This document shows, in pieces, positions 2,607 to 42,096 of a stretch of DNA of 64,000 nucleotides. Made by a program: the position numbers and the translations under genes. Within the stretch, counting starts at the first letter, position 1. Every line of letters begins with the position of its first letter. The DNA lies in IMG/VR virus record IMGVR_UViG_3300002144_000620, positions 1 to 64,000 of that record; one strand, written 5' to 3'. The DNA is from a virus. The notes under the pieces are model-generated. The model ran no database searches, was not told the origin of the DNA, and saw nothing but the letters and a program-made list of their open reading frames with translations.

Positions 2607-3866
2607 TTAGAAGAATTTACCAAATAGTCTTTTGGTTTCTTTTTTAACTGGTTCGATTGTTTTGTTTTTTCTGGATAGTGCTTTATCAACACTTTCTATT
2701 ACCTGATCAATAGTTATTGTTTTACTACACTCAAAGTGTCTATCGGTATCTTTGTGATCTGGGCACCATTCCCAATCACCTGGATTTAACCATTCTCTAT
2801 TAAAACAACCATTACAAGTATTTTCATTAGGTGTAAACACTCTTTCACAATCATTAAATTCTGATAAAGGTTTACTAAAACCAGATATTAAAACTGTGGG
2901 TGTTCCGATGGCCCATGATATCCAACTAAGACCACTACCTAAACCAATAAAGGCGTCAGCGTGTTTTATATCAATCATACGGTCATTTAAGTCTATGTGT
3001 CCACCAGTTTTATCAATCACACCTGTTAAAGTACCACCTAATTTAGAATCGTGCCAAGGGTCATTTAATTTTTCTGACGTAATCATAACTACTTTATAAC
3101 CTTTATCATTTAAATAATCAACAACTTTTTGCCACCCACCTGGTGTGTTCCAGTATTTAGCGTGAGCTGATGCGTGTGGTGCTATAACAACGTATTTACC
3201 ATCAAACCTACTAGGTTCATCAGGTACGCTTACAATAGGTTTTATCTCTTCATAATCTAACCCTAAGATGGAGCTAGATGTTTGTTGTAAAGGGAATTTT
3301 TTAAAATCTATGGGTATCTTTGTTGTAACAACTTTTTTATCATCATAAAACCAACCTATGTTATACATAGCGTATAGATTTTCAACAGGGGTACCTGGTT
3401 TGACAAATTTAATATTAGGGTATTTTGATTCAAACCAATCATTGTGGAAAGTAGAGCAAATCATTTCACAGTTATGTTTTTTCTGGAACTCATCAATATA
3501 TGGGAACCAAGCTAATGTGTCACCAACAGCTGAACTACCCATGTGTATGTAAACTCTTTTATTTTCAGCATTATAGTTATGTTCAAACACAATTTCATTT
3601 ATACTAAGATCGTAAATCTTAATGTTCCAATCAACAAAATACTCTAACGAACTTTTTGTCCACATGTTATTTGTTATTTCAGAACTGTGATGTATCTTAC
3701 CAGTTCTATTATCTGTAAATACAACTTTATATTTACCCTCTAACGGACCCTTTATTTCGCAAAAGGGTCCATTTGTGAAATGTGTTATAAATGAGTTGGT
3801 TGGTTCTTTATAACCTTTTCTTAAAATTTCTGTGTTATTGTACTCTTTAATTAATATTTCCTTCAT
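2607..3866 (-). CDS. TibC/Aah (BAHT)-like protein O-heptosyltransferase, GT9-type fold
   Basis: 419 residues. The C-terminal two thirds is a GT-B heptosyltransferase-like domain: HMGSSAVGDTLAWFPYI at about 108-124, VVIAPHASAHAKYWN near 226-240 and an IGLGSGLSWISWAIGTP segment at 307-323. After it comes a Cys cluster, C351-x2-C354-x13-C368-x11-C380, in the context CNGCF...WEWCPDH...HFEC. A Cys4 iron-binding finger near the C-terminus is the hallmark of the bacterial autotransporter heptosyltransferase (BAHT) family, which moves heptose from ADP-heptose to protein Ser residues; LPS heptosyltransferases lack it. It overlaps the carbamoyltransferase gene by 20 nt. The Ser-rich fibre two genes away is an obvious candidate acceptor, by inference only. 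A separate heptose-kinase-like gene lies at 41350-42096. Confidence 0.8.
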   Translation of the reverse strand: MKEILIKEYNNTEILRKGYKEPTNSFITHFTNGPFCEIKGPLEGKYKVVFTDNRTGKIHHSSEITNNMWTKSSLEYFVDWNIKIYDLSINEIVFEHNYNAENKRVYIHMGSSAVGDTLAWFPYIDEFQKKHNCEMICSTFHNDWFESKYPNIKFVKPGTPVENLYAMYNIGWFYDDKKVVTTKIPIDFKKFPLQQTSSSILGLDYEEIKPIVSVPDEPSRFDGKYVVIAPHASAHAKYWNTPGGWQKVVDYLNDKGYKVVMITSEKLNDPWHDSKLGGTLTGVIDKTGGHIDLNDRMIDIKHADAFIGLGSGLSWISWAIGTPTVLISGFSKPLSEFNDCERVFTPNENTCNGCFNREWLNPGDWEWCPDHKDTDRHFECSKTITIDQVIESVDKALSRKNKTIEPVKKETKRLFGKFF

Positions 3867-5484
3867 ATTTCTTATAAATAAAATTGTTTATGATTAATAG
3901 GTCAACAACATCATTATCTAGATGTGTAAACGCTTCGTTTGGATGACATACTATTGGTTCACCGTGTACGTTAAACGATGTGTTTAAAAGCACGGGTACT
4001 TGGGTTATCTTATTATATTCATCCAGTATCTTATGGAAAGTTGGGTTACTATCCTTAGTCACTATTTGTATCCTAGCTGTTTTATCAACTGGATGCACTA
4101 CCGTTGGTATCCTATCAACCCATTCAGGTTTGGTATCGTATAGCATTGTCATAAACTCAGCTGTGTATCTTGATTTAGTTACCTCAAATATATCACTAGC
4201 ATATTCACTCATAACAGCAGGTGCAAATGGCATAAAATCATTTCTTTGTAACTTATTATTGATTTTATCATATGTATCTGGGTTAGTTACCTCACCTATT
4301 ATACTTCTATTACCTAGTGCTCGTGGTCCGTGTTCGTATCTACCATTAAAAACACCTATGATTTTACCTTCGGATAAATATTTAGCGGCTATTTCTGGTG
4401 TGAATAACTCTCTACTGAATTTATTCATATCCCAATACCCCTCACCAACCTCTTGATCAGTAAAACTGGTACCTAAGTACATATCACTTAACTTAAAAGG
4501 TTTAAATTCAGGTGTGTTAATTTTATGTGTCATTATGGCACAACCTAAAGCACAACCTTCGTCACCCATTGGGGGTGCCACAAACATTTCGTCAACCCAA
4601 TATAATTCATTTAATACTTTATTAAGTTTTACGTTAGCAAAAATACCTCCAGCTACTGCTAGTTTTTTAATGTTTGGGTACCTGTTGTGTAGGTTGTTTA
4701 CTATAGTTAAAACCTTTTCTTCAAAAAATTTCTGTCCAGTATAAGCTATATCGGACTTGTCACCAAAATATACTTTTGAACCTAATTCTTTGTAATAAGC
4801 TGTATAGAAGTCTAAATAAAGTTTACCTAAAATCACATCGTCACTATCTTTTTTATTATCGTCATCGGTATGTATATCAATGACTTTAAAAGCTTCGTTT
4901 AATGCGTGATATGTTATTACGTCATGATTACCGTGAGCCGCCATACCAACAACCTTACCTTCGTCTTTAAGTCGTTTAAAACCTAAAAACTCGGTTATTA
5001 ATGAATATAGATGTCCGAATGATTTTTTCTCGATATCTATACCGTCAATAAAATTTAAATTACCCTCGCTACCAACAAAGTATTTAGCACTGTACTCACC
5101 ACCGCTAGCATCCATTGTTACAACTAACGTATCGTCTTGGAAATTACTCATATAATAAGCTGTTGCTGCATGAGAATCGTGATGGTCAATAAAAACAAAT
5201 TTTTCATCAGGAAATTCACCTAAGTTCATTTCCTCCCAAAACGATTTAACCTCTTTTTTGGGGTAATAACTAGTAATATAATCAAGTGAGTTTAAATCTA
5301 AACCAAACTTGTTAATAGCTATGTTTATTGAATCCATTGGGTATCTAAAATACCCGTCATAGAAATCTTGATATACCTTTACCCTTACGTGTCTTTCTTC
5401 TTCTAAGGAGAACACAATGTTACCATCCTCAACTAAGGATATACCGCAACAATGTTCACCAAATGACATTCCTAATATTTTCAT
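3847..5484 (-). CDS. O-carbamoyltransferase, NodU/CmcH/TobZ family
   Basis: 545 residues, full length for the family. The N-terminal domain starts with ILGMSFGEHCCGISLVEDG and carries the HHDSHAATAYY His/Asp cluster at 101-111, VVTMDASGGE at 121-130, AVAGGIFANVKLN near 276-288 and PPMGDEGCALG near 304-314. The C-terminal domain contains HGPRALGNRSI at 385-395, typical of the YrdC-like carbamoyl-adenylate site. Family members make carbamoyl-AMP from carbamoyl phosphate and ATP and carbamoylate a sugar hydroxyl. Its start codon overlaps the preceding stop (TAATG), showing tight coupling to the GT4 gene. The acceptor is unknown; a sugar made by the surrounding glycosyltransferases is the natural guess. 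Confidence 0.9.
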   Translation of the reverse strand: MKILGMSFGEHCCGISLVEDGNIVFSLEEERHVRVKVYQDFYDGYFRYPMDSINIAINKFGLDLNSLDYITSYYPKKEVKSFWEEMNLGEFPDEKFVFIDHHDSHAATAYYMSNFQDDTLVVTMDASGGEYSAKYFVGSEGNLNFIDGIDIEKKSFGHLYSLITEFLGFKRLKDEGKVVGMAAHGNHDVITYHALNEAFKVIDIHTDDDNKKDSDDVILGKLYLDFYTAYYKELGSKVYFGDKSDIAYTGQKFFEEKVLTIVNNLHNRYPNIKKLAVAGGIFANVKLNKVLNELYWVDEMFVAPPMGDEGCALGCAIMTHKINTPEFKPFKLSDMYLGTSFTDQEVGEGYWDMNKFSRELFTPEIAAKYLSEGKIIGVFNGRYEHGPRALGNRSIIGEVTNPDTYDKINNKLQRNDFMPFAPAVMSEYASDIFEVTKSRYTAEFMTMLYDTKPEWVDRIPTVVHPVDKTARIQIVTKDSNPTFHKILDEYNKITQVPVLLNTSFNVHGEPIVCHPNEAFTHLDNDVVDLLIINNFIYKKYEGNIN

Positions 5485-6431
5485 TAAATTGATAATGGTT
5501 TTTGATAAACTTTTAATAATTCTACTGATCTATTGTACCAGGATAGTGATTTAGCATGATTTATAGCCTTTGTTCGGTAATTATCGTAATCACTGATAAT
5601 ATCATCCAAACCATTAACTAAAGCTAAAACATTTCTATTAGCTCTCCACATACCACTAAAATCCGTCTCCATCTCAATCCAACCATTAATAGGTAGACCG
5701 CATGCAGCAGCTTCTAATATAGTTAGATTAGGGTGACCAGCCTCTAACTCAGATGGGTGCATAAATATTGTATGTCTTTGATATAAATCTAATAACCCAT
5801 CCTGATTAGGTTCCCACTCTAAATTTAATTTAGGGTAACCGTAAACCCATGGGTTTTCTTTTAAGAAGTTTTCATTATTTCTTGGCCCAGCTATTGTAAT
5901 TGGTAAGTTTTTGGCCATAGCAGCTTTAATAGCGAATCCAAACCCTTTTCTATCGTAACCATCCATACCAGCCATACCGTTATTCGCTAAGCAAAGTAAT
6001 CTATGTTCTTTAGGTGTTTCCGATGGTTTAAAAAAGTCTGTGTTAACACCATGTGAGAAATAAACTGCTTTAGGTGTATTGAAGTATGGTACTAAAAATC
6101 TACCTGGCATTAGAGATACTTCAGAGTTCTCAATGGCTAATAAATTTTGTTTAAATACCTGAGAATCTTTACCATAGTAATATGCGTGATGATCATGTAG
6201 TTGGTATATGTATTTAACACCTCTTTCATGTAGGAAAATAGCTAGGTTAGCCATATGTACGTGTACTACATCGTAATCACCTGGTTTTATCTCATTAGCA
6301 TACTTTATATCAACAGTATGACCTAATTTTCTTAAGTTTTGGGTAAACTCCCAAACTATTTTTTCTACAGCACCCCAACTTGGTGGTGGTACTGGTATCC
6401 CGCATCCAGGGTGTACTTGACATATTTTCAT
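5484..6431 (-). CDS. GT4-family glycosyltransferase
   Basis: 315 residues with a GT-B layout. The N-terminal Rossmann half starts MKICQVHPGCGIPVPP and contains the WGAVEKIVWEF sugar-donor loop type found in GT4 enzymes. The C-terminal half contains HPSELEAGHPNLTILEAAACGLP (about 225-247), the conserved E-x7-E nucleotide-sugar binding region. No signal peptide or membrane segment is seen, so it acts in the cytoplasm. It lies 30 nt after the large multi-domain transferase in the same operon. Donor and acceptor cannot be assigned. Confidence 0.88.
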   Translation of the reverse strand: MKICQVHPGCGIPVPPPSWGAVEKIVWEFTQNLRKLGHTVDIKYANEIKPGDYDVVHVHMANLAIFLHERGVKYIYQLHDHHAYYYGKDSQVFKQNLLAIENSEVSLMPGRFLVPYFNTPKAVYFSHGVNTDFFKPSETPKEHRLLCLANNGMAGMDGYDRKGFGFAIKAAMAKNLPITIAGPRNNENFLKENPWVYGYPKLNLEWEPNQDGLLDLYQRHTIFMHPSELEAGHPNLTILEAAACGLPINGWIEMETDFSGMWRANRNVLALVNGLDDIISDYDNYRTKAINHAKSLSWYNRSVELLKVYQKPLSI

Positions 6432-6461
6432 ATTATTACTATATTCTTTTACTTATGTAAA

Positions 6462-9209
6462 TTATCCCGCAAAAATTTGTGGATAATCATTGTCTTTGCT
6501 TTTATCCTTTTTATCAACAATTGAATAACCTGGTAGGTGTTTAGTATAAACTTTATCAGCCATTGCACCGTGTAATCCAGCAACCTTAGTCATCCAAAGA
6601 TCAAAAGCTTCCCATTTGCATGTCTCAAACTTACTAACAAAGTTAGGTAATTTTTCTCTATTAATCAAATAAGATTGGGCTGGTGCAAAAATACTTAGGT
6701 TTAAAAGTAAATCTTCTCTTTGACCACTATATCTTTCCGCACAGTAATTACCAAAACCAACCATATCAATATTCTCTTCTTTAGCTAATTTTGACCATCT
6801 AATTAAATTATCGTACAACTCATCATATGGGGAATCTATAATAACATCACCCTCAAACACCAAAATAAAATCAAATTCATTGTTGCTTTCCATGGTTATA
6901 CCATTTTTATGTGCTAAGAAGCACCCGTAATGACCTGGGGATAATTTAAAGTAACCTGGTTCCATCGCAACGTCTTTAGGTCTGTGGCACGTATCTAATG
7001 GGGGTAATTCCTTGTATATAACATTTACCTTTTCATAGTACTCGATATTATCGAAATCACTAGCAAAATCTTTTAATGATTTAGATGAAATTAACTCTTT
7101 AGGATTTGTATCTGGTTCCGTAACTAAATGAACTATTCTAATCTTAGGTTTTTTATTACCAGATATAATTTTAACCTCATCAATTTTATTATGTGTGAAT
7201 TTACCGTTATTAGGTAATATATTGATTAGATAGTTATTATCAACTATTATAGTTTTATTTTCTATCAATTTGTTGGAATGCATATCAAAACTAGTGTACT
7301 CGATTGAGTATTTACTGTTTTCAGATAGGTTGTATTCGACAAGTTGGTATGAACTACATTTACCAGAAACTGATACATCATAGTTTTTTATTAAATCACC
7401 ATCTTTATTTATTTTAATATTAACTATACGACTATCAACTGAATTGGATATTTGTAGATATACTACAAATGTGTTCGGTATGTTACTAGGTAATATAGTA
7501 AAATATTCTACCATAGAATAATCTTTGTGTGTTAAATTAGTATTAACATCGGCAATAAAATTATTTTCTGGCACTAATTCAATTTGATCTAACTTATCTT
7601 TAAAAGCAAAATACATTAAATTCTCGTAACCGTTGCTAAATGAACCCCATTTTAGTCTTAAATTTTCATAATCGTTAGCAGAATTAATTCTATCAACGGT
7701 GTCTAAATAAAATTCTGGACGAATTCCCATAAAGTATGTTACAACCGAGTGACCCTCGGCATTGTCTGGCATATCACCAAAATAAGCTGACTTACTGTTT
7801 AGTTTTTGTGATATATTATTTAAATATTCTGTATTAGGGTTTAATATATAATCATAATTTAAAAAATATACTTTGCTAATACCTAATTCTTTAGCTAAGG
7901 CAGCTCCATTATAATAATTAGTGTAACATGTTGGTCCGTGATATATGTCATTACCTTCACCTCTTAAATTAACAAAAGAATGGAAATCACCTTCACTATA
8001 CCTACTTTGAGAATAAAAAGTGTGTTTAGTTAAAATATTATTTTTATCATACACAAAATAATCAACCAATTCTTGTAATTCAGTTGATATTGGTAAGTGT
8101 GATGTTAATATAACTTTTCTACCAGTGGCTTTAGCTGACATAATACACTCTATGGTTGTATCGTAAGCACTCTTTGTTTTTGGATAGGTTGATATTATAA
8201 TAGCTTCATTACTAGGGTCAATAACCTCATTAATAGTTGTTGCAGGGGTTTTGTTTAGGGTTTCACTTATTAATTCACAATTTTTATCAAAATTAGTGAA
8301 GTCTAGGTAACCAATATTTTCAAATTTATCAAAATAATCTAAATAAACACCTAAGTTGTAGATTAATATTGGTAGGTTCCATGAAATAGCCTCACGAATA
8401 ACTAGTGGCATTGTTTCTTTATCGTTATTTGAACCTCTTGATGTAAATAAGAATAGGTCCATGGCTCCATAAAAACGTTCTACATCATTTCTTTCACCAT
8501 GCCATATAACATTTTTTGGTTTATTGATCATTAAAGGTTCCCAGTAATAAGCGAAATTACCCGATTGGTTACCAACAGTGTGGAAAACGTGATCTGGTAA
8601 ACTCCTAGCGTATTCAAAAAACTCAGCCTGATTTTTTCTAGGTGTAAATAAACCAACGTGTAGAATATGTTTTTTTGTTGGGTCTAAACCTAAGTCAATT
8701 AAAGATTTTTCTCTATTGGGTCTATTTTGGTATTCGATTGGGTATTCTACCAGTACTTTAGGTATTTCATTTATACTTTCAAATAATTTTATTTGCCAAT
8801 CAGATACAAACATAAATTTATCTGGAAAGAATTTTTTTTGTGTTGCATCGTATGATGAATCGTGTGATGTTTCGACAATTACGTAATTTCTATCGTCTTT
8901 GTAAAGATTTTTTGCGACATTAAAATCCATGAAATACTCTGGTATTTCTTCTAAGTGTACAATATCTGGTTTAACTCTATTAACAATATCAATGAGTTCC
9001 ATTTTATTCTCGTGTAGTGTGAAAAATCTATCAGGATCAACCATAGATGTTATCCTGTCACGCTGCACCACTAACACGCCTCCAGTATGATTTGACCATT
9101 CTATTACATAGATCTCAAACGTATCCTTAAGTAATTCTATTTTTTTCGTTAGATACTGCGGTAAACCACCTGTAGATAGGTGCGGTGCGATATATAATAA
9201 TTTCTTCAT
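6462..9209 (-). CDS. Three-module glycosyltransferase: GT4 - middle domain - GT25
   Basis: 915 residues. Residues 1 to about 340 form a GT4-like GT-B domain (LYIAPHLSTGGLPQYLTKKI, HVGLFTPRKNQ, then FTSRGSNNDKETMPLVIREAISWNLP with the donor-binding Glu residues). About 345-690 starts AIIISTYPKTKSAYDTTIEC and resembles a GT-A-like or accessory module I cannot name. The last ~220 residues look like GT25 (LPS galactosyltransferase / procollagen galactosyltransferase family): HYGCFLAHKNG, then VFEGDV at 784-789 in place of the usual EDD metal motif, and a late LPGYSIV. It is the first gene of the glycosylation operon, about 20 nt downstream of a Bacteroidota-type promoter. GT25 is known from collagen glycosylation, which is notable beside a collagen-like fibre. 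Confidence 0.82.
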   Translation of the reverse strand: MKKLLYIAPHLSTGGLPQYLTKKIELLKDTFEIYVIEWSNHTGGVLVVQRDRITSMVDPDRFFTLHENKMELIDIVNRVKPDIVHLEEIPEYFMDFNVAKNLYKDDRNYVIVETSHDSSYDATQKKFFPDKFMFVSDWQIKLFESINEIPKVLVEYPIEYQNRPNREKSLIDLGLDPTKKHILHVGLFTPRKNQAEFFEYARSLPDHVFHTVGNQSGNFAYYWEPLMINKPKNVIWHGERNDVERFYGAMDLFLFTSRGSNNDKETMPLVIREAISWNLPILIYNLGVYLDYFDKFENIGYLDFTNFDKNCELISETLNKTPATTINEVIDPSNEAIIISTYPKTKSAYDTTIECIMSAKATGRKVILTSHLPISTELQELVDYFVYDKNNILTKHTFYSQSRYSEGDFHSFVNLRGEGNDIYHGPTCYTNYYNGAALAKELGISKVYFLNYDYILNPNTEYLNNISQKLNSKSAYFGDMPDNAEGHSVVTYFMGIRPEFYLDTVDRINSANDYENLRLKWGSFSNGYENLMYFAFKDKLDQIELVPENNFIADVNTNLTHKDYSMVEYFTILPSNIPNTFVVYLQISNSVDSRIVNIKINKDGDLIKNYDVSVSGKCSSYQLVEYNLSENSKYSIEYTSFDMHSNKLIENKTIIVDNNYLINILPNNGKFTHNKIDEVKIISGNKKPKIRIVHLVTEPDTNPKELISSKSLKDFASDFDNIEYYEKVNVIYKELPPLDTCHRPKDVAMEPGYFKLSPGHYGCFLAHKNGITMESNNEFDFILVFEGDVIIDSPYDELYDNLIRWSKLAKEENIDMVGFGNYCAERYSGQREDLLLNLSIFAPAQSYLINREKLPNFVSKFETCKWEAFDLWMTKVAGLHGAMADKVYTKHLPGYSIVDKKDKSKDNDYPQIFAG

Positions 9210-32243: not shown

Positions 32244-32999
32244 TTAATTTTCTCTAAATATTTGTTCTATTTTTTTTATTAAAGGGTTTCTAACAACATC
32301 ATCTTCATTAAGTATGACAGTACCAACTTCATCAAAGTCACTAAATTTACCTATGATAAAGTTGAGGGAACTTTGGTCTTTTCTTTTCATGTCAATTTGG
32401 TTTTCGTCACCCAAGAATATCATCTTAGAGTTTTCACCTAATCTTGTCATTATTGTTCTTATGTTATCTATTGAGATATTTTGCGCCTCATCGATTATTA
32501 CGATAGAGTTATCTATGTTAATACCTCTCATGTATGCTATTGGCATTTCTTCGATCATACCAGCATTTCTTAACATCTCAACATTGTACTTACCAATAAC
32601 CTTTTCAAAATTATGCATGAATGAGTACATAAAAGGTTCCATTTTTTCTTTCATAGTTCCCTTTAAGAAACCTATTTCTTCATCCTTTAAAGTTGTAACC
32701 GATTTAACAATAATAATTTTTCGGTATCTACCATCATTTTTAATTAAATCTAAAGCTACAGCACATGATAGAAATGTTTTGCCAGTACCTGGTAAGCCAG
32801 AACATATAACCATTTCTTTATTTTTTATCTCTTTAACTAATTTTTTTTGGTTAATTGTTTTACATTTTATATCAACCCTTAATTTATCTAAGATATTACC
32901 ACCATGATGATTTGCTGACATCGATTCTAAGATGTCATGTTCCTCTTCAGGGGATAATTTTCTTTTTGATTTTCTATTAGATATTGGTCTACCACTCAT
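32244..32999 (-). CDS. PhoH-like ATPase
   Basis: 251 residues. Walker A GLPGTGKTF (about 69-77), then FLKGTMKEKMEPFMYSF typical of PhoH, Walker B SIVIIDEAQN (about 155-164) and FLGDENQID. PhoH family proteins are P-loop NTPases, some with RNA helicase/ribonuclease links, and are very common in large phages. The N-terminus is Arg/Lys/Ser-rich. It starts 6 nt after the HAD phosphatase gene. Confidence 0.93.
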   Translation of the reverse strand: MSGRPISNRKSKRKLSPEEEHDILESMSANHHGGNILDKLRVDIKCKTINQKKLVKEIKNKEMVICSGLPGTGKTFLSCAVALDLIKNDGRYRKIIIVKSVTTLKDEEIGFLKGTMKEKMEPFMYSFMHNFEKVIGKYNVEMLRNAGMIEEMPIAYMRGINIDNSIVIIDEAQNISIDNIRTIMTRLGENSKMIFLGDENQIDMKRKDQSSLNFIIGKFSDFDEVGTVILNEDDVVRNPLIKKIEQIFREN

Positions 33000-33005
33000 A
33001 AATTT

Positions 33006-33302
33006 TTAATTTTTAAAATAATTTTCACTGTTTATATTTTTATCATCAATGAATAAATCGTAAGGTGGTTTACCGAATTTTAGTTCGTGGTATTTAACCC
33101 CCCACTCTTTAAACTGTTTCTTAGTTAATTCAGAGTGGTCTATGCCAGTGACCGAACCTCTAGCTGTCCAATAAACAATTGTATTACCTTCATCGTATAA
33201 TTTATTTATTTTATCTATTCTGTCAGGTATAGGTTTTGATTTTGTGTAATCAGTACTATCTGTCTTAAATATTGTATTATCTATATCTACGTATATTAAC
33301 AT
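33006..33302 (-). CDS. Small HAD-superfamily phosphatase
   Basis: 98 residues: motif I VDIDNTIF with D6/D8, motif II in VYWTARGS, and the motif III/IV region KPPYDLFIDDKN. It is a minimal HAD without a cap domain, like the small phosphatases found in capsule and sugar-nucleotide gene clusters. It lies 3 nt downstream of the NeuB-like gene, so dephosphorylation of a nonulosonate phosphate is a reasonable guess, comparable to Neu5Ac-9-phosphatase or KdsC steps. That is inference; polynucleotide or nucleotide substrates are also possible. Confidence 0.75.
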   Translation of the reverse strand: MLIYVDIDNTIFKTDSTDYTKSKPIPDRIDKINKLYDEGNTIVYWTARGSVTGIDHSELTKKQFKEWGVKYHELKFGKPPYDLFIDDKNINSENYFKN

Positions 33303-33305
33303 ACA

Positions 33306-34151
33306 TTACTTTCTCAAACTTTTCATTTTCGATAACTCACCACCAAATAATTCTCTTGGTCCTTCTGGTATTAATAAAGATTCTTCAATATCTCGTATAC
33401 CTTTAACCAATTTAAATAAACCAGATGGTTCAATAGATGCTGAGTGATCTGACCCCCACATACCTCTGTCTAATGTTATATGACGCTCTACCCATGTCAC
33501 ACCCATCGGTATTGTAGCAAAAGTAGTTACTAAACCGTATTCGTGTCCACTATAACCTATTTCTTTTTCGGTGTAATGGTTTTTTAACCATGTTATATAA
33601 TTTAAGTTTAATTCACTTACTGGGCATGGGTATGTTGAGTTTGTGTGCATTATAACGTCAGGGTTACACGAGTCTATACATAAAGTTACTTCATCTTCAT
33701 TACTCATACCCGTTGAGACCATTAGGTAGTCAGCTTTATCTCTAGCGTATTTACATAGTTCGATATCGGTTATTAGTGCTGATGGTATCTTCATAGCGAT
33801 TCCTAGATCACTTTTATACCTCATCATAAAGTCTACTGACGTTTTGTCCCAAACGGATGCAAACCAATTAATACCAATCTCTTTGCAGAATCTGTCTATC
33901 TCATCATATTCAATCTCACCAAACTCAGTTTTCCATTTGTATTCTAAGTAAGTTATCTCACCCCACGGTGTTTGTCTCATCTTATTTTTTTGTTCTTCTG
34001 GTACACAGATATCTGGGTTTCTTTTTTGAAACTTAACGTAATTACAGCCAGCTGCTTTAGCCACTAATATTAATTGTTTGGCAATATTAATGTCACCGTT
34101 GTGATTAATACCTATTTCACCTATTATTTTAACACTATTTTTTTTATTCAT
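33306..34151 (-). CDS. neuB: NeuB-family nonulosonate (sialic acid) synthase, lacking the SAF domain
   Basis: 281 residues. EIGINHNGDINIAKQLI at about 11-27, VKFQKRNPD, the KIPSALITDIEL barrel strand, MVSTGMS, HTNSTYPCP, EIGYSGHEYG and VERHITLDR-GMWGSDHSAS are the ordered hallmarks of the NeuB TIM barrel, which condenses phosphoenolpyruvate with an acetylated mannosamine or related sugar. Usual enzymes are ~340 residues with a C-terminal SAF (antifreeze-like) domain; here the protein ends right after the barrel. The exact product (Neu5Ac, legionaminate, pseudaminate or other) cannot be read. It overlaps the FkbM gene by 8 nt. Confidence 0.9.
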   Translation of the reverse strand: MNKKNSVKIIGEIGINHNGDINIAKQLILVAKAAGCNYVKFQKRNPDICVPEEQKNKMRQTPWGEITYLEYKWKTEFGEIEYDEIDRFCKEIGINWFASVWDKTSVDFMMRYKSDLGIAMKIPSALITDIELCKYARDKADYLMVSTGMSNEDEVTLCIDSCNPDVIMHTNSTYPCPVSELNLNYITWLKNHYTEKEIGYSGHEYGLVTTFATIPMGVTWVERHITLDRGMWGSDHSASIEPSGLFKLVKGIRDIEESLLIPEGPRELFGGELSKMKSLRK

Positions 34152-34776
34152 TGTAATATTTTTTATTTAAAAGTATATAATCATTTTGTTTAACATTTAT
34201 TGATGATGATTTAAATATAGAGTAAAAACCTTTATTGTAAATATATTCTAAAACCTCTGGTTCTAATGTTTGTCCGTTAAAATATTCAACCTCTTCAGTT
34301 TCAATTTGTAAGACTTTAATGTTTTCCAATAAATTACCAAAGCTTTCTAGAGCCTCTAATGTGGCGCCTTCAACGTCTATTTTAACTAAGTCTGGTGTTG
34401 GTGAGTTATTTTTATTTATAAATGTATCCATTCTTTTGCATTCTAACTCAACCAATACTTCTTTAGTTTTAGATAAATTTTGTTCAAAAATACTATGTAT
34501 ACCATTTTTTTCTTTATGAAAAAAATTAGTTTTACCATCGTAATTACGTATAATCATGTTATGGAAATTAACTTTATCCGTATCTTTACCTAATAAGAAT
34601 TTTTCGTAATTATCAGGTAAACCTTCAAACCCAATAACTTTACAGTTGAATAGTTCCGATAATAGAAAACTGTCAAATCCGTTAAGGCAACCTATATCGT
34701 AAATTAATTTTATTTCAGAAGTGTTTATTTTTTTATCTAAAACACTTTTTATTGTTTGCATCTCTAATCTCGCCAT
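34144..34776 (-). CDS. FkbM-family SAM-dependent methyltransferase
   Basis: 210 residues from the ATG at 34776. IYDIGCLNGFDSFLLSELF is the SAM-binding motif I, VIGFEGLPDNYEKF the acidic loop, and MDTF...PDLVKIDVEGATLEALESF the defining FkbM segment. Family members O-methylate sugars. An ATG at 34839 would extend the protein but overlap the upstream GT gene by 76 nt, and an ATG at 34761 starts 2 nt after the upstream stop; 34776 fits the small overlaps seen elsewhere. It lies between the NeuB-like gene and a GT-B gene. Confidence 0.88.
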   Translation of the reverse strand: MARLEMQTIKSVLDKKINTSEIKLIYDIGCLNGFDSFLLSELFNCKVIGFEGLPDNYEKFLLGKDTDKVNFHNMIIRNYDGKTNFFHKEKNGIHSIFEQNLSKTKEVLVELECKRMDTFINKNNSPTPDLVKIDVEGATLEALESFGNLLENIKVLQIETEEVEYFNGQTLEPEVLEYIYNKGFYSIFKSSSINVKQNDYILLNKKYYNE

Positions 34777-35615
34777 TTTTCGTAAATTTTTATATATTCG
34801 TTTGCGATTATTTCTGGATCCCAATTTGCTTCCATCCATAATCTAGTTTTATACCCAATATCTAATATATCATCTAATCCAGATTCAATTAAATCTATTA
34901 ATTTATTCTCTAAATCATAATAATAGACATTTATAAACGGGTTATTTTTAGCACCTGAAGATCTTAGTAATACCTCCTCCACGCTATTGTCGGTTGAGCA
35001 TATTGTTGCAATACCCATAGCCATTGATTCTAAGCCAGATCTATGGTATGATGATGTTTTAACTTCATCTATGAATATGTTACACATCGACTTTCTATCT
35101 AGACACACTTCTAGTGGTACACCAGTTATTATATCTAACTCAACTTTACCCTTATATAGTTCTTTTATTCTATTTAAGATTGGTATGGTCTCTGAATAAC
35201 CTTTATCAGCCCATTCGGATGTTGGTTCTATCGTTGATGGAGAGTAACCTATACGTATAACTTTATCTTGGTATTTAGGTAAAAAATCTATGTCGTATAA
35301 ATCAACTGGGTTTCTAACTATTCTACAATTATGGTACTCTTTTAGTGTTGCGTGATACTGCGCTATAACCAATTTCGGTAAACTAACATTTAAGTCAACT
35401 CTAAAGGGTTCACTATGATATTGTATGATACTTTTTTTATTGGTTCTAAAGACTTTATTATGTTGATGTATGATGTCTGAATCAGGTCTTATTAATTTAT
35501 TAGGATACGAATATCCTATTACAAATGATTGATGATCAGTATATTTATTAATTACACCACTAATAGCCTCAGGAGCTTTAGCTATGCTAGTATTTTTAGT
35601 GTGTGTTATCACCAT
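34764..35615 (-). CDS. GT-B-type glycosyltransferase
   Basis: 283 residues. N-terminal THTKNTSIAKAPEAISGVINKYT resembles a GT4 acceptor-side loop. The C-terminal half contains IRIGYSPSTIEPTSEW, ELDIITGVPLEVCLDRKS, and DEVKTSSYHRSGLESMAMGIATICS with the donor-binding Glu, then a final helix. Short for GT4, with a trimmed N-terminal domain. Overlaps the GT29-like gene by 20 nt. Confidence 0.75.
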   Translation of the reverse strand: MVITHTKNTSIAKAPEAISGVINKYTDHQSFVIGYSYPNKLIRPDSDIIHQHNKVFRTNKKSIIQYHSEPFRVDLNVSLPKLVIAQYHATLKEYHNCRIVRNPVDLYDIDFLPKYQDKVIRIGYSPSTIEPTSEWADKGYSETIPILNRIKELYKGKVELDIITGVPLEVCLDRKSMCNIFIDEVKTSSYHRSGLESMAMGIATICSTDNSVEEVLLRSSGAKNNPFINVYYYDLENKLIDLIESGLDDILDIGYKTRLWMEANWDPEIIANEYIKIYEKWRD

Positions 35616-36591
35616 AGTAAGTTATGATATTGTCTTTTTTATTGTATTCGTATGCGTTACCTATTATAAAATCCTTTTCATTATCATAGTTATGTACTTT
35701 AGATATAACATATTTTAAACCCTCTTCAGTTCTTAATATACTTTTTTCACCGTCTTTATAGAAATTAAAACCGATTAAGTTGATTTCTTTATAACCACCT
35801 AATTTTTTTAATAATTTTAACATAACTAAACCGCTAGTGGATGGGTTTGAGTCATTAGTTACCCCTAACAAATCATTATGGTGGTTGTATTTTAATATAA
35901 TACTTTGTTTAAACTTATCTAATTTCAACACAATATCTCGCCAATTTTGCATTTTATTCGATATTATAAATCTTATTGGTACAAATTTATCTAAATTAAC
36001 TACTTGTAAGTATACACTCGTATGTATTGTCGTTTTGTTACCAGTAAAAACCTTATCGATTTTATAGGAATTAAATCTAATAACTATATCGTGATCATCT
36101 ATAAATTTACCTTTTTTTAATTTTAATAGATCGGATGAATTAGCCACTAATACGATTCGCTTACCTTTAATAAATCTTTTAAAATTAATTAGTGATAAAA
36201 ACGATATTTTTTTTTTATTATTACCTAAAAATAAATTAACTTTATTATCATAATTAATGATTTCACTATTATCATTATTAATGATTTCACTATTATCATT
36301 ATTAAGGATAATATTATCCGTATTTATTTGGTGTAATTTGTTTTCGTCTATAGGGGCACAGATACCCTTTTTAATAATTATTGGTCGTGTATCTGATTTC
36401 AGATTTTTACCATCTTTAAACGTAACACGAATCGTTGTACTTGGCTGGATAGGTCCAACCATTTCTATAACTGGTTCTATAACTGGTTCTATAACTGGTT
36501 CAGGTGCCCTTACAACTGGCGCCATAACTTTATTTACGAGTTTCTTTGATTTATTATTTAGAAACTTATCTTTTCTTGTGAAGTAACTCAT
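35596..36591 (-). CDS. GT29 sialyltransferase-like protein with a repetitive N-terminal extension
   Basis: 331 residues. The first ~130 are low-complexity (EPVI repeats, NNDNSEII repeats). From about 144 the GT29 sialylmotifs appear in order: motif L (KRIVLVANSSDLLK...IDDHDIVIRFN, 144-174), motif S (NPSTSGLVMLKLL...INLIGFNFY, 249-278) and motif VS (H300-x4-E305). GT29 enzymes transfer sialic acid from CMP-sialic acid; they are typical of eukaryotes and rarer in bacteria and viruses. It overlaps the CMP-sugar synthetase gene by 26 nt, which supplies the donor type. Cytosolic: no signal peptide or membrane anchor. Confidence 0.8.
   Translation of the reverse strand: MSYFTRKDKFLNNKSKKLVNKVMAPVVRAPEPVIEPVIEPVIEMVGPIQPSTTIRVTFKDGKNLKSDTRPIIIKKGICAPIDENKLHQINTDNIILNNDNSEIINNDNSEIINYDNKVNLFLGNNKKKISFLSLINFKRFIKGKRIVLVANSSDLLKLKKGKFIDDHDIVIRFNSYKIDKVFTGNKTTIHTSVYLQVVNLDKFVPIRFIISNKMQNWRDIVLKLDKFKQSIILKYNHHNDLLGVTNDSNPSTSGLVMLKLLKKLGGYKEINLIGFNFYKDGEKSILRTEEGLKYVISKVHNYDNEKDFIIGNAYEYNKKDNIITYYGDNTH
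36254..36301 (-). repeat. 24-bp x2 in-frame tandem repeat
   Basis: Two perfect 24-bp units (36254-36277 and 36278-36301) encode the NNDNSEII repeat of the GT29-like protein. Confidence 0.85.
36463..36498 (-). repeat. 12-bp x3 in-frame tandem repeat
   Basis: Three perfect units of ttctataactgg (plus strand) encode the EPVI repeat near the N-terminus of the GT29-like protein. Confidence 0.85.
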
Positions 36592-37213
36592 TTAACTCTT
36601 TTTCCGTATCAATATCAATAACATCACTTATCCCAAAAAAATAAGTTTCGTTATTATATAAATTATTATTTAGTTTATTAATCTCATTTATATTAAATAT
36701 ACTGATGTAGTGTGATATTTCAAAAATATTTGGATAATCTTGTCTACGATACATATCATGTTTAATTAGTTGGGTACCTTTATTTTCACCAGTATCCAAC
36801 ATGTATAAATACGGGTGTGTACCTTTTATATCTTTTTTACATAATAAACTTTTAATATTTTTATTAGTAAAAATATTATACACCTCTTTGATCTGATTAA
36901 ACGTTCTTTCTGGATAAGTTAAGTATAACATTATTACCACATCGTCTTCATTTAAATCACCGTTTTTTACGAGGTATTCAACAACTTCTTTTGTACTAGT
37001 TGTATCAATAGATAGCTCGTCTGGTCTAATAGATACCCTTAAACCAATTGATTCACATTTTTCGATTAAGTATTCATCGTCTGTTGATACAATTATTTGT
37101 TTATGGTATTCTTTTGGTATAACATCAATAGTTTTATTAAAAAGTAATCTATTTTTAAATGGTAATCCTTTTGAGTTCCTTCTGGCTGGTATTAGTATTT
37201 TTACGTTATTCAT
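36566..37213 (-). CDS. neuA: CMP-N-acetylneuraminate synthetase-like cytidylyltransferase
   Basis: 215 residues. KILIPARRNSKGLPFKNRLLF at 5-25 is the NeuA/KdsB nucleotide-binding loop. IIVSTDDEYLIEKCESIGLRVSIRPDELSID follows, and the end has the VIDIDTEKEL motif that carries the metal-binding Asp residues. It activates a nonulosonate with CTP. Overlaps with the two GT29-like genes (26 and 8 nt) place it between them, making a donor-synthesis plus transfer cassette with the NeuB-like gene 2.4 kb downstream. Confidence 0.88.
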   Translation of the reverse strand: MNNVKILIPARRNSKGLPFKNRLLFNKTIDVIPKEYHKQIIVSTDDEYLIEKCESIGLRVSIRPDELSIDTTSTKEVVEYLVKNGDLNEDDVVIMLYLTYPERTFNQIKEVYNIFTNKNIKSLLCKKDIKGTHPYLYMLDTGENKGTQLIKHDMYRRQDYPNIFEISHYISIFNINEINKLNNNLYNNETYFFGISDVIDIDTEKELNELLHKKR

Positions 37214-37745
37214 CTATTAAAACTTTAACCTTACCGTTATTAATTAAACCATCTACTAACTTTTTTTCAATTTCTGGGTTATGACCAGACATTTTACAAT
37301 CATCTTTATAATAATGAACACCTCCAGTAAAAAAGTCGAAACCATGTATTTTGACCATATAACCTTTTGATATAAAGTAATATATCATTAGTATGCCAGT
37401 TGTAGCCCATAACCCATTAGTATTTATTATTTTATTAATTTGGTTATAAAAAATAAGTGGTACTATGGTGTGCCCACTTTTTTCAAGGATGTTTAAAGTT
37501 TCGGTGTTGTGTGGTAATAAACCTGGGTATACATAAATTTTTTCATCAAAATTAGTATCTAAATGTTTTTTAGAAAATTTTGTTCTAACCCATATGTTTG
37601 TTTTTGTACCAACAAAATCCTCATAACCGTTTAACTCAAAATCATTGAATCTAACAACGGTCTCATGTGAATCAATTAAGTCACGACATTTATTTTTCAA
37701 ACACGATGGTCCGTTACCTATTAATAATATCTCTTTAACACTCAT
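37206..37745 (-). CDS. Compact GT29 sialyltransferase-like protein
   Basis: 179 residues, nearly only the catalytic core. Motif L is ILLIGNGPSCLKN...IDSHETVVRFNDF (6-36), followed by FVGTKTNIWVRT (44-55); motif S is LWATTGILMIYYFISKG...KIHGFDFF (112-139); motif VS is H155-x4-E160 in SGHNPEIEKK. All three sialylmotifs are present in order. It shares the architecture of the neighbouring 331-residue protein but not its N-terminal repeats, so the two are likely distinct transferases. It overlaps the two-domain GT gene by 4 nt. Confidence 0.82.
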   Translation of the reverse strand: MSVKEILLIGNGPSCLKNKCRDLIDSHETVVRFNDFELNGYEDFVGTKTNIWVRTKFSKKHLDTNFDEKIYVYPGLLPHNTETLNILEKSGHTIVPLIFYNQINKIINTNGLWATTGILMIYYFISKGYMVKIHGFDFFTGGVHYYKDDCKMSGHNPEIEKKLVDGLINNGKVKVLIDE

Positions 37746-39187
37746 AATACTTTTATAGCCTTTTCTAAATCTGAATTAAAATTTTCTATATGTTTATCTT
37801 TAGTAAAATCATACTGGTAACCTAAGGCTCTTTCTCTGTTAAAACTACTTAATCTATTATGGTAATTTTTCATTTTATTTAAAAAATATTCTAAACCAAT
37901 TTTTTTATAGTGTAATAGCTTTATTGGTTCTTTGAAATAAATAACATTACCCACTGGACTAGCCACATGACAACCAAAATTAAAATTAATTTCACTAATA
38001 TCGTTAGGTTTAAACATACATAATTTATTAAAATGATCATGTTTATAACCGTATTTAACGTCATTAACTATGTTTTCAGTCGTTGTAACGTCAAAACTTT
38101 CGATTATCATGTCATAACCCTCTGGTTTCACTATAGTGGCCTCACTGTTGTTAAAATTGGTTATGTATTCGTTTATGTTTTCTGTATAGAGAAATTCATC
38201 CATATCACAGACAATAACAATATCTGATTTACCTCTAGAATTTTTCCATAAACTATTTTTTATTTGTAAGTAAGCATCGTCACGTATTTCACCACCAGTA
38301 TCGTAACTAATAATAGTTACTTTAGGGTGTTTGTTTAATATCTTAACACTATTGTCGTCAGATTTATTATCATAAACTATAATTTTATTAACCCAGTTCT
38401 CGTAATGTTTTAAAAATGATGGAATTATTTTCTCTTCGTTCCAACATAAAACATGTAGGTCTACTTTAGGTAATGATTTATCAAAAATTATTTGTGATAC
38501 ATCTTCGTTTAATGTTAGTGGTAGTTTTTCTGAATATTTTTTCTCAAAAATTTCTTTATTACTAACCCATTCATCGTTGGTACCCCCAATTGATTTATGT
38601 ATTAACTTTATATTTGATATTAAACCTAACTTAGCACCGTTTATGTGGTTTTCAAAACAGAATGATATGTCGTAAAAATGGAACCCCTTAAAAGATTCAT
38701 CAAATTTATTTTTTATCTTATTTCTATCCACAGCCAGAAATAGACCATCAAGTACAATCATTTCTTTTAATTGATTACCATAATTGGTTGAGTATTTATT
38801 TTCCCAGGTCTTATTACCATCAGTGTGTTTTACCGTACCGTGCATAGCGTTACGTATTTCCCACCACATACCATTAATCATATGGTTGGTACCAGCTACA
38901 CCTAGTATAGAATATTCTGGGTTTTTACTAAACTGTTTTATTAGTTTATCACCCCAATTTTTGGTTTCGAATATTATATCGTCATGACAAAAAACAATTA
39001 TATCACTAGAAGCTTCTTTTAAACCTTTATTGTATATTTCTGTTAGAGAGTATTCTCCGTTATTTACATAAGGTAATATTTCAACACCTTTATGTAGACA
39101 CGTTTTTTCTAGATGATCTATAAAGGATTGGTCGATTAACCTTGTTGAATAAACTATACTTATTTTAACGTTTATCATTTTCTTCAT
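37742..39187 (-). CDS. Two-domain GT-A glycosyltransferase
   Basis: 481 residues. Domain 1 (about 5-225) is GT2-like: ISIVYSTRLIDQSFIDHL, then DIIVFCHDDIIF with the acidic metal motif (D69/D70) and LIHKSIGGTNDEW. Domain 2 (about 241-481) starts VDLHVLCWNEEKIIPSFLKHY, has VYDNKSDDNSV and VCDMDEFLY (D328/D330), characteristic of the GT92/Glyco_tranf_2_4 group, and LHYKKIGLEYFLNKM. It probably adds two sugars in sequence. It is the gene just upstream (in transcription) of the sialylation cassette. Confidence 0.85.
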   Translation of the reverse strand: MKKMINVKISIVYSTRLIDQSFIDHLEKTCLHKGVEILPYVNNGEYSLTEIYNKGLKEASSDIIVFCHDDIIFETKNWGDKLIKQFSKNPEYSILGVAGTNHMINGMWWEIRNAMHGTVKHTDGNKTWENKYSTNYGNQLKEMIVLDGLFLAVDRNKIKNKFDESFKGFHFYDISFCFENHINGAKLGLISNIKLIHKSIGGTNDEWVSNKEIFEKKYSEKLPLTLNEDVSQIIFDKSLPKVDLHVLCWNEEKIIPSFLKHYENWVNKIIVYDNKSDDNSVKILNKHPKVTIISYDTGGEIRDDAYLQIKNSLWKNSRGKSDIVIVCDMDEFLYTENINEYITNFNNSEATIVKPEGYDMIIESFDVTTTENIVNDVKYGYKHDHFNKLCMFKPNDISEINFNFGCHVASPVGNVIYFKEPIKLLHYKKIGLEYFLNKMKNYHNRLSSFNRERALGYQYDFTKDKHIENFNSDLEKAIKVL

Positions 39188-39512
39188 CTTCTTCTATTAA
39201 GTCATAATCGGTATTATCTTCCTTAAATTTAAGAACTGGTATGATACCATTAACTTTTTGTATAAATGTAAATTGTAAAGCAACTTCATTTAACTCTCTT
39301 TCCAGAAAAGTAGCTAACTTATATTCTTCCGAATTCATCGGATAAACAAAAGCGTACAAAACTTTATCACCAACCTGTATTCTTTTACCAGACCATACTG
39401 TTTTATATTCAACACGCTCAAGTACATCTGGTGTAATCGTCTTGTAAGCTTTTATCTGATCTTTAAATTCGTTGTACATATCATTTAATACCTGTGGATC
39501 CAAACCCGCCAT
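39165..39512 (-). CDS. Unknown protein between dUTPase and GT genes
   Basis: About 115 residues from the ATG at 39512 (MAGLDPQVLNDMY). A longer start at 39539 would overlap the dUTPase gene by 59 nt, and an ATG at 39479 would avoid overlap. The product has a beta-rich middle (WSGKRIQVGDKVLYAFVYPM) and an acidic tail. No family is recognised. Overlaps the GT gene by 23 nt. Confidence 0.6.
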   Translation of the reverse strand: MAGLDPQVLNDMYNEFKDQIKAYKTITPDVLERVEYKTVWSGKRIQVGDKVLYAFVYPMNSEEYKLATFLERELNEVALQFTFIQKVNGIIPVLKFKEDNTDYDLIEEDEENDKR

Positions 39513-40065
39513 CACCTCTTTCTGAGGTTGATAACACATCTTTCTTTATAAATTTTGTTTTACCTATAGTTTGTACAGCAGAAATAACACCTTGTGCAAT
39601 TCTATCACCGTTATTAATAAAAAACCCTGAAGTCTGGTCCGTATTGTATAGAATAATACCTATCTCACCCCTATAACCAGAATCAACAGTTCCAGGGCTA
39701 TTTAGTACCATGATACCGTTTTTTAAAGCTAAACCACTTCTAGATCTAACTTGTAATTCATAACTAGAAGGGATTTCGAAATATAAACCAGTGGGTATTA
39801 AAGCTCTTTGACCAGGTTTAATCGTAATCGGTTCGTTAATAAATGCTCTAATATCAAAACCGCTATCACCATCTTTTTCATAAGATGGGTCTGGGTTATT
39901 AGATTTATTAACAAAAGAAACTTTCAATTTAACATTCATTGTTTCTGGGTCGTAATCCCAGTCACCCATTAAGTTGGTTGTTTGACCCAATAAGTCGTCT
40001 AAATCTCTTTTCATCCCGTCATTAAGGAATTCACTCATATCCATATTTTCTAAAAAATTGTTCAT
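39481..40065 (-). CDS. dut: Trimeric dUTPase with N-terminal extension
   Basis: 194 residues. All five dUTPase motifs are present: DGDSGFDIRAF (65-75), RSRSGLALKNG (107-117), NSPGTVDSGYRGEIGIILYN (122-141, catalytic Asp128), GDRIAQGVI (153-161) and the C-terminal RGDGGFGSTG (183-192). The ~48-residue N-terminal extension is acidic and absent from most dUTPases. It hydrolyses dUTP to dUMP and PPi, protecting phage DNA from uracil. It lies 1 nt after a GT-B gene, inside a glycosylation-rich operon. Confidence 0.95.
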   Translation of the reverse strand: MNNFLENMDMSEFLNDGMKRDLDDLLGQTTNLMGDWDYDPETMNVKLKVSFVNKSNNPDPSYEKDGDSGFDIRAFINEPITIKPGQRALIPTGLYFEIPSSYELQVRSRSGLALKNGIMVLNSPGTVDSGYRGEIGIILYNTDQTSGFFINNGDRIAQGVISAVQTIGKTKFIKKDVLSTSERGDGGFGSTGIK

Positions 40066-41349: not shown

Positions 41350-42096
41350 TTATTTGGGTGTTACAACTCCTCGTCTACTTACAACATCAGCTGATTTTTT
41401 GTTAGCGTCCATTATGGATAAACCTATATTGCCAGTAATGTAATAAGCTGATATAAATGCCGCTGTAAATGTATCCCCAGCACCACTGACATCAATTGTC
41501 TCTTGTGGATTTGGTGATGGATAATGGTTATTTTTATAACTAGCACCATTTTGACCTAGAGTTACGATGATGCCTTCATGATTTAAACTATCGTTATTCA
41601 TGAACTCATTTTCGTTTAGTTTAATAAAACTAAAATCTTTAATAATTTCATCCGTTAATTTTCTTTTACTATCTAATATAGATAACTTTGAATTACTAGA
41701 TATTTTTTTTAAATCAATGTCCGATAAAAAACCTTTGTTGTAATCACTTACAATAACAATATCCGAATCATTTATTACTTTATTGATATTATTATCATAT
41801 TTAAAAGGGGTTATAGATCTTTCACCATCATCAACACGTAAAAACATGTGATTAGATTTAGATTCAACATATCTAGTTTTTGTTATATTTTCTATCTGAG
41901 TAATTGTAGATACGTTTGATTCGTGTAGTATTACTCTGATATTAGCCTCTGTATTACCAGCCATACCGTTATTTTCGATTATTTTAATAGGGTTCAGAAC
42001 TGGAACTGGTGCTTCTGGTGATAATCTGTTTACATCGCAATAGATAAATCTATCTATACAAGTTTCACCAATAACTAAGACGTTAACGTTATTCAT
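41350..42096 (-). CDS. HldE/RfaE domain I-like heptose kinase (PfkB family)
   Basis: 248 residues. VLVIGETCIDRFIYCDVNRLSPEAPVPVLNP holds the RLSPEAPVPV signature of RfaE/HldE domain I (residues 24-33). IDVSGAGDTFTAAFISA (201-217) is the PfkB ATP/anion-hole motif with catalytic Asp208. HldE-type kinases phosphorylate D-glycero-D-manno-heptose 7-phosphate at C1 on the way to ADP-heptose. The protein is shorter than usual (~310-330 residues for domain I) and the nucleotidylyltransferase domain is absent, so the host would have to complete the pathway. It starts 4 nt after a Bacteroidota -7 box and is the first gene of the long operon. Confidence 0.82.
   Translation of the reverse strand: MNNVNVLVIGETCIDRFIYCDVNRLSPEAPVPVLNPIKIIENNGMAGNTEANIRVILHESNVSTITQIENITKTRYVESKSNHMFLRVDDGERSITPFKYDNNINKVINDSDIVIVSDYNKGFLSDIDLKKISSNSKLSILDSKRKLTDEIIKDFSFIKLNENEFMNNDSLNHEGIIVTLGQNGASYKNNHYPSPNPQETIDVSGAGDTFTAAFISAYYITGNIGLSIMDANKKSADVVSRRGVVTPK

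Follow-up and report, generated by a model that had tools for sequence, protein, structure and literature searches.

Two kinds of described pathway come closest to the genes considered here. Bacterial clusters for sialic, legionaminic and pseudaminic acids group a synthase, an enzyme that activates its product as a cytidine monophosphate (CMP) sugar (NeuB/NeuA, PseI/PseF) and a CMP-sugar transferase, together with precursor genes (NeuC, PseB/PseC, LegB/LegC). The pathway for 2-keto-3-deoxynononic acid (Kdn) in Bacteroides thetaiotaomicron and Prymnesium parvum runs through a Kdn-9-phosphate (Kdn-9-P) synthase, a Kdn-9-P phosphatase and a CMP-Kdn synthetase, and the phosphorylated Kdn route is established in other systems (PMC6200933). 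We analysed bases 1-64000 (the window, to which all positions below refer) of the 153,961-base IMG/VR virus record IMGVR_UViG_3300002144_000620, which carry an eight-gene minus-strand operon in the order GT2, GT29a, NeuA-like, GT29b, GT-B, FkbM, NeuB-like and HAD. Like the bacterial clusters, it keeps synthase, CMP-synthetase and CMP-sugar transferases together, but it has no precursor genes, its synthase lacks the C-terminal antifreeze-like (SAF) domain and a phosphatase gene is present. With the Kdn pathway it shares the same three-step logic, and the phosphatase type of that pathway is found with the bacterial relatives of this NeuB; the phage phosphatase, however, is a small EcbF-like HAD rather than a KdsC-type enzyme, the phage brings its own transferases and its product is putative. 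On balance we favour the reading that, during infection, the operon serves to produce a sialic-acid-type (2-keto-3-deoxy) sugar by a phosphorylated route, with the HAD protein as the phosphatase, and then to activate and transfer it.

A sequence-only reading of the window had described a seven-gene cassette at 33006-37745. All seven open reading frames and their families are present there on the minus strand, with overlaps of 8-76 bp or a 3-bp gap between neighbours, but the operon begins earlier, with the GT2 gene at 37742-39187. The profiles expected for the synthase (PF03102), the synthetase (PF02348) and the two GT29 proteins (PF00777) all match above their curated cut-offs. A nonulosonate-type synthase, a CMP-sugar synthetase and sialyltransferase-type transferases thus stand in one viral operon, and their catalytic features are conserved.

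The synthase (33306-34151, minus strand, 281 amino acids) is by its sequence clearly a member of the NeuB family and not KdsA (PF03102, 3e-57; 194.3 bits against a curated cut-off of 22.1). The positions of Neisseria SiaC residues E25, K53, Q55, K129, S132, S154, Y186, S213, H215, E234, H236 and D247 are invariant in 24 viral homologues aligned to 1xuu, down to 34% identity, and the N184 position is an invariant serine. Among the invariant positions, E25, Q55, K129, Y186, S213, H215, E234 and H236 are catalytic and metal residues of the TIM barrel. Five of these, K53, S132, S154, H236 and D247, lie outside the published list of sites and we take them to be functional in SiaC. That list, of binding-site residues in Neisseria NeuB, covers most of the positions compared (PMC6795526). 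All 24 aligned viral enzymes stop near a ...KSLRK linker, just ahead of the position of the SAF domain. In Neisseria NeuB, Arg314 reaches from the SAF domain to touch the N-acetyl group of N-acetylmannosamine (ManNAc), and the related 3-deoxy-D-manno-octulosonate (Kdo)-8-phosphate synthase is also without a SAF domain (PMC6795526). The phage reading frame ends at the linker and therefore lacks both the domain and the Arg314 of a canonical N-acetylneuraminic acid (Neu5Ac) synthase; the nearest PDB entry, 6ncs (290 amino acids), ends at the same linker. The protein does not reach the cut-offs of the equivalog model TIGR03569 (181.6 bits versus 399.65) or of the PseI model TIGR03586 (132.4 bits versus 340.25).

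The short form of the synthase is widespread in water viruses. One query sequence retrieved 38 loci from IMG/VR, and an alignment query retrieved at least 291 viral stretches with the synthase; neighbourhoods were counted for 73 distinct viral NeuB loci. NeuA lies within 3 kb of NeuB in 60 of these. The small HAD gene is found in the fetched stretch of 62 loci, within 5 kb in 58 and within 100 bp in 26, and no KdsC-type HAD occurs within 3 kb in any of the 73. Gene order varies (NeuA-NeuB-HAD, NeuB-NeuA-HAD, HAD-NeuB), and the surrounding methyltransferases, other transferases and aminotransferases change from locus to locus. The synthase was found in just 3 of 50,697 GenBank phage records, two of them uncultivated viruses and the third named Moritella viscosa (19% identity), and no cultivated phage with the module came to light. 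This core is common in uncultivated viruses and nearly absent from GenBank phages. To call such a gene set unusual, as had been done from the sequence, is therefore too strong: neuA and neuB reads were already counted in viromes in 2013 (PMC3877843). That table showed the same genes in viral metagenomes, but as single genes, with no clade, module or mechanism, and the literature on phage nonulosonate pathways yielded only single-gene mentions; the SAF-less viral clade and its module appear undescribed in the literature searched.

The same association of synthase and phosphatase is seen in bacteria. At least 591 bacterial stretches match the synthase profile, and in the 80 best of these, searched with hidden Markov models over all six frames, a KdsC-type HAD lies within 3 kb of the SAF-less NeuB in 70. 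The usual place is some 100 bases upstream, and in 40 loci the HAD forms one protein with a NeuA domain. SAF-less NeuBs of Chlorobi, Anaerolineae, Hymenobacter and actinobacteria fall in the same clade as the viral ones, with about 50% identity and the same C-terminal end, but they adjoin or are fused with a KdsC-type phosphatase where the viral loci carry the small HAD, with NeuA as a short protein of its own. When two of the bacterial partner HADs were compared with the PDB, 3e81/3e8m, which we take, despite a different PDB title, to be the Kdn-9-phosphate phosphatase BT1713, was the best match for one and the second best for the other. Upstream of NeuB, two bacterial loci (L067, L095) have by eye transketolase-like, aminotransferase-like and short-chain-dehydrogenase-like proteins, a hint of an ulosonate pathway yet to be characterised.

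As a control, we took genomes drawn once from the phylum to which a Hymenobacter belongs (mainly Bacteroidota) plus five named genomes, and split their NeuBs by length. Within about 1.5 kb, a KdsC-type HAD accompanies 19 of the 21 NeuBs with a short C-terminus and none of the 16 long ones, and a Pfam scan found the SAF domain in 4 of 4 long and 0 of 3 short proteins. The Fisher p value is 1e-8 for the unthinned set and rises on thinning to 2e-6 (90% identity), 6e-5 (80%) and 0.005 (70%). One of the two short genes without a KdsC-type neighbour is from Flavobacteriales (L211, the same gene as L045 below) and has a virus-type HAD directly downstream. It is this linkage of the SAF-less clade to HAD phosphatases, in virus and bacterium alike, that points to a phosphorylated aldose as the substrate.

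In a tree, the SAF-less sequences stand apart from the long NeuBs, and 46 viral rows group together with strong support, the Flavobacteriales cellular copy among them; the long-branch viral rows L038 and L039 fall outside it. This was a quick tree with SH-aLRT support only, and it places the long branches L039, L208 and L038 with little certainty. A recent host-to-phage transfer of NeuB is not supported, as the viral NeuBs are a diverse group of their own with the cellular copy nested inside. That copy (L045:8004-9152), in a Flavobacteriales metagenome-assembled genome, is a virus-clade NeuB with a virus-type HAD in an apparent capsule locus; judged from these relationships, the pair probably moved from virus to cell.

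Downstream steps of the pathway are represented by the NeuA-like protein and the two GT29-like proteins. The first (36566-37213, minus strand) is a divergent viral form of CMP-ulosonate synthetase that matches PF02348 at 8.7e-8 (32.7 bits; cut-off 22.6) and aligns over its full length with the CMP-Neu5Ac synthetase 1eyr, its best PDB match (7.7e-16). Among 18 aligned viral copies, the CTP-binding motifs are conserved: the ARxxSKGxPxKN loop and the RRQ motif are kept in all or nearly all, and a DxD near the C-terminus in most. The sugar end departs from the classical enzyme, with YLTYP for QPTSP and FExSH for RPNGA, and because these residues differ where the sugar should bind, the sugar that is activated may differ from the classical one. 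The protein stays below the equivalog cut-off of the PseF model TIGR03584 (52.1 bits versus 205.7).

GT29a (37206-37745, minus strand, 179 amino acids) and GT29b (35596-36591, minus strand) match PF00777 at 1.7e-11 (44.5 bits) and, over residues 145-192, at 6.7e-7 (29.4 bits), against a cut-off of 23. The predicted model of GT29a (pLDDT 85, pTM 0.86) has the GT29 fold, its best matches being mammalian GT29 sialyltransferases (TM-score 0.77 to the ST3Gal-I complex 2wnb); the fold evidence is for GT29a alone, and GT29b is assigned by its profile match. GT29a resembles ST3Gal-I and ST6GalNAc2 in fold and, by eye, in L-, S- and VS-type motifs, but it has just 179 amino acids, no membrane anchor or stem that we could see and about 20% identity. 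We regard both proteins as sialyltransferase-type transferases with a putative CMP-ulosonate donor, and a single-domain enzyme of this size could be a handy sialyltransferase. Among 37 viral loci, the gene directly upstream of NeuA codes for a GT29 protein in 6 and for an MptE-like protein in 13; one MptE-like protein from a viral locus also matches the CST-I sialyltransferase model, weakly, and the MptE-like family takes in the Maf-type flagellin glycosyltransferases. GT29b itself occupies the position between NeuA and NeuB, where the glycosyltransferase of the window and of L002 and L004-L011 carries a conserved basic N-terminal tag, M[GS]xF..., possibly for targeting or docking, followed by a long and probably disordered linker. 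The catalytic part behind the tag varies, being GT29-like alone or a GT8 domain with an apparent GT29-like part (611-631 amino acids).

Three further enzymes would contribute to the glycan. The first gene of the operon encodes a two-domain GT2 glycosyltransferase (minus strand; PF13712 3.2e-25, PF13704 1.2e-16) and overlaps the next gene by 4 bp. The 283-residue protein at 34764-35615 (minus strand) had no convincing family match in profile searches, but its model (pLDDT 77) has a GT4-type GT-B fold that matches PimA and BshA, so that structure prediction bears out its assignment as a GT-B transferase just as it does that of GT29a. The FkbM-family methyltransferase (34144-34839, minus strand) scores 62.4 bits against TIGR01444 (cut-off 37.7) and matches PF05050 at 5.4e-14, above the curated cut-off; as listed, its frame reaches 76 bp into the upstream gene, so translation probably begins at an internal start.

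The label of HAD phosphatase for the 98-residue protein at 33006-33302 (minus strand) is upheld by matches to phrog_1238 (1.3e-28) and PDB 9iqw (9e-11); no Pfam family is above cut-off, however, and the EcbF-BcbF model TIGR01689 matches at 1.7e-7 with 31.3 bits, below its cut-off of 162. We propose it as an ulosonate-phosphate phosphatase, and several observations count against that proposal and the route built on it. Thinning the control at 60% identity leaves few distant representatives and a Fisher p value of 0.07. In animals, sialic acid synthases have a SAF domain although their substrate is phosphorylated, so absence of the domain is by itself no proof of a phosphate substrate. The HAD is also generic in T4-like phages: it occurs in 385 GenBank phage records, against only 3 that have the synthase, and we rejected the idea that it is a NeuB-specific phage gene. 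In those phages its neighbours are often annotated as carbohydrate kinase, ADP-heptose synthase or nucleotidyltransferase, and it may instead serve a heptose-type module. The window has a PfkB/HldE-type kinase at 41350-42096 (PF00294 3e-10), and the same slot in relatives (L004:2710-3123, L011:1604-2035) holds a nucleotidyltransferase (PF01467 4.6e-16 in L004) and a cupin-like protein, as if these were split halves of a heptose-activation-like module. The HAD and the kinase would then belong to a nucleotide-sugar module common in T4-like phages that merely shares the glycan island, with no relation to NeuB. We consider this rather doubtful, given that the HAD lies within 100 bp of NeuB in about a third of the viral loci, in differing gene orders, and that NeuB and HAD moved, in all probability jointly, into a cellular capsule locus.

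Further counter-evidence favours the canonical chemistry, in which the synthase would take unphosphorylated ManNAc or another acylated hexosamine from the host directly to a Neu5Ac-type sugar, while the HAD does other work, as its presence in many phages without NeuB would allow. The best NCBIfam match of the synthase is NeuB_NnaB, at 181.6 bits, and a WecB-type UDP-GlcNAc 2-epimerase lies near NeuB in seven further viral lineages and in the L021 group. Five loci (L163, L167, L170, L188, L190) are compact viral NeuA, NeuB and HAD operons with such an epimerase behind; all five epimerases match TIGR00236 and three exceed its cut-off. Several marine relatives thus have such an epimerase beside the core, which fits a precursor of ManNAc type and makes a ManNAc-based product possible for some members of the group. 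For the phage operon we think an acylated hexosamine unlikely: the NeuB_NnaB score is far under the equivalog cut-off, without a SAF domain there is no Arg314 (PMC6795526), HAD phosphatases are linked to SAF-less and not to long NeuBs, and the record has no epimerase. Improbable too is another ulosonate made by the same enzymes, such as a Kdo-like C8 or other 3-deoxy acid and no sialic acid in the strict sense, for although the unclassical sugar end of the NeuA-like protein, its weak matches to Kdo cytidylyltransferase models, the SAF-less Kdo-8-phosphate synthase (PMC6795526) and the KdsC-type HADs beside bacterial relatives speak for it, the synthase is of the NeuB family, the synthetase is closest in the PDB to 1eyr and the modelled transferase has a sialyltransferase fold.

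Under the phosphorylated route, the SAF-less NeuB would condense phosphoenolpyruvate with a phosphorylated aldose of the host to give an ulosonate phosphate, in the simplest case mannose-6-phosphate to Kdn-9-phosphate, the identity of the substrate being a guess. The small HAD would strip the phosphate from this product, as a KdsC-type HAD would in bacteria, and the NeuA-like enzyme would use CTP to form the CMP-sugar. One or both GT29-like enzymes would then pass the sugar to a glycan made by the neighbouring GT2 and GT-B enzymes, which the FkbM enzyme would O-methylate. The sequence-only reading had found no NeuC-type epimerase in the window and looked for the precursor in the host or elsewhere in the phage. 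No Epimerase_2 (PF02350, NeuC/WecB) or DegT aminotransferase (PF01041) was found in the whole 154-kb record, nor did the remainder show one on inspection by eye, and we rejected a NeuC hidden elsewhere in the virus. With a sugar phosphate as the start there would be no need for NeuC, and the epimerase is then probably not "missing" at all; many hosts would supply a common compound such as mannose-6-phosphate, and this would explain why the phage has neither epimerase nor aminotransferase. The sequence-only reading was right in outline and probably wrong about the starting sugar.

The record encodes a terminase, portal, major head protein, head protease, DNA polymerase and DNA helicase, which identify the virus as a T4-like phage. 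A Bacteroidota host is suggested, by weak pointers only: a Shine-Dalgarno-like motif precedes only 1 of the 45 window genes, the GC content is 31% and the terminase is nearest to those of Flavobacterium phages (31% identity). The operon had been placed beside the virion genes, but its immediate flanks are a dUTPase and a small gene (39165-40065) on one side and PhoH (32244-32999) on the other, with the terminase, portal and capsid genes some 12-24 kb away. A second glycan island (2607-9209), with a NolO-type carbamoyltransferase (3847-5484; phrog_1601 1.4e-93) and glycosyltransferase-like proteins, does adjoin the major capsid protein gene. At the edge of the record, positions 1-1731 encode an open-ended protein with Gly/Ser-rich collagen-like repeats.

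Most likely the glycan decorates the virion or the host surface. Virion glycosylation is plausible because the second island adjoins the major capsid gene and the operon consists largely of glycosyltransferases; a changed host surface is equally open. More broadly, we put forward, tentatively and at somewhat less than even confidence, that aquatic T4-like and other large viruses have an old SAF-less synthase lineage of their own, with a small HAD in place of the KdsC-type enzyme. This would give them a viral route from a common sugar phosphate to a CMP-activated sialic-type sugar, a route that could be used across many hosts to decorate virions or infected cells and from which the NeuB-HAD pair also entered a cellular capsule locus. 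If this is true, viruses can produce sialic-acid-type sugars from nothing but central metabolites, whereas cellular clusters need special precursors, and the travel of the module between hosts would be explained. It would also mean that a SAF-less NeuB is accompanied by a phosphatase and uses a sugar phosphate, a rule that would apply to a large bacterial clade as well, and it would predict acidic sugars, so far looked for by nobody, on many environmental virions or infected cells.

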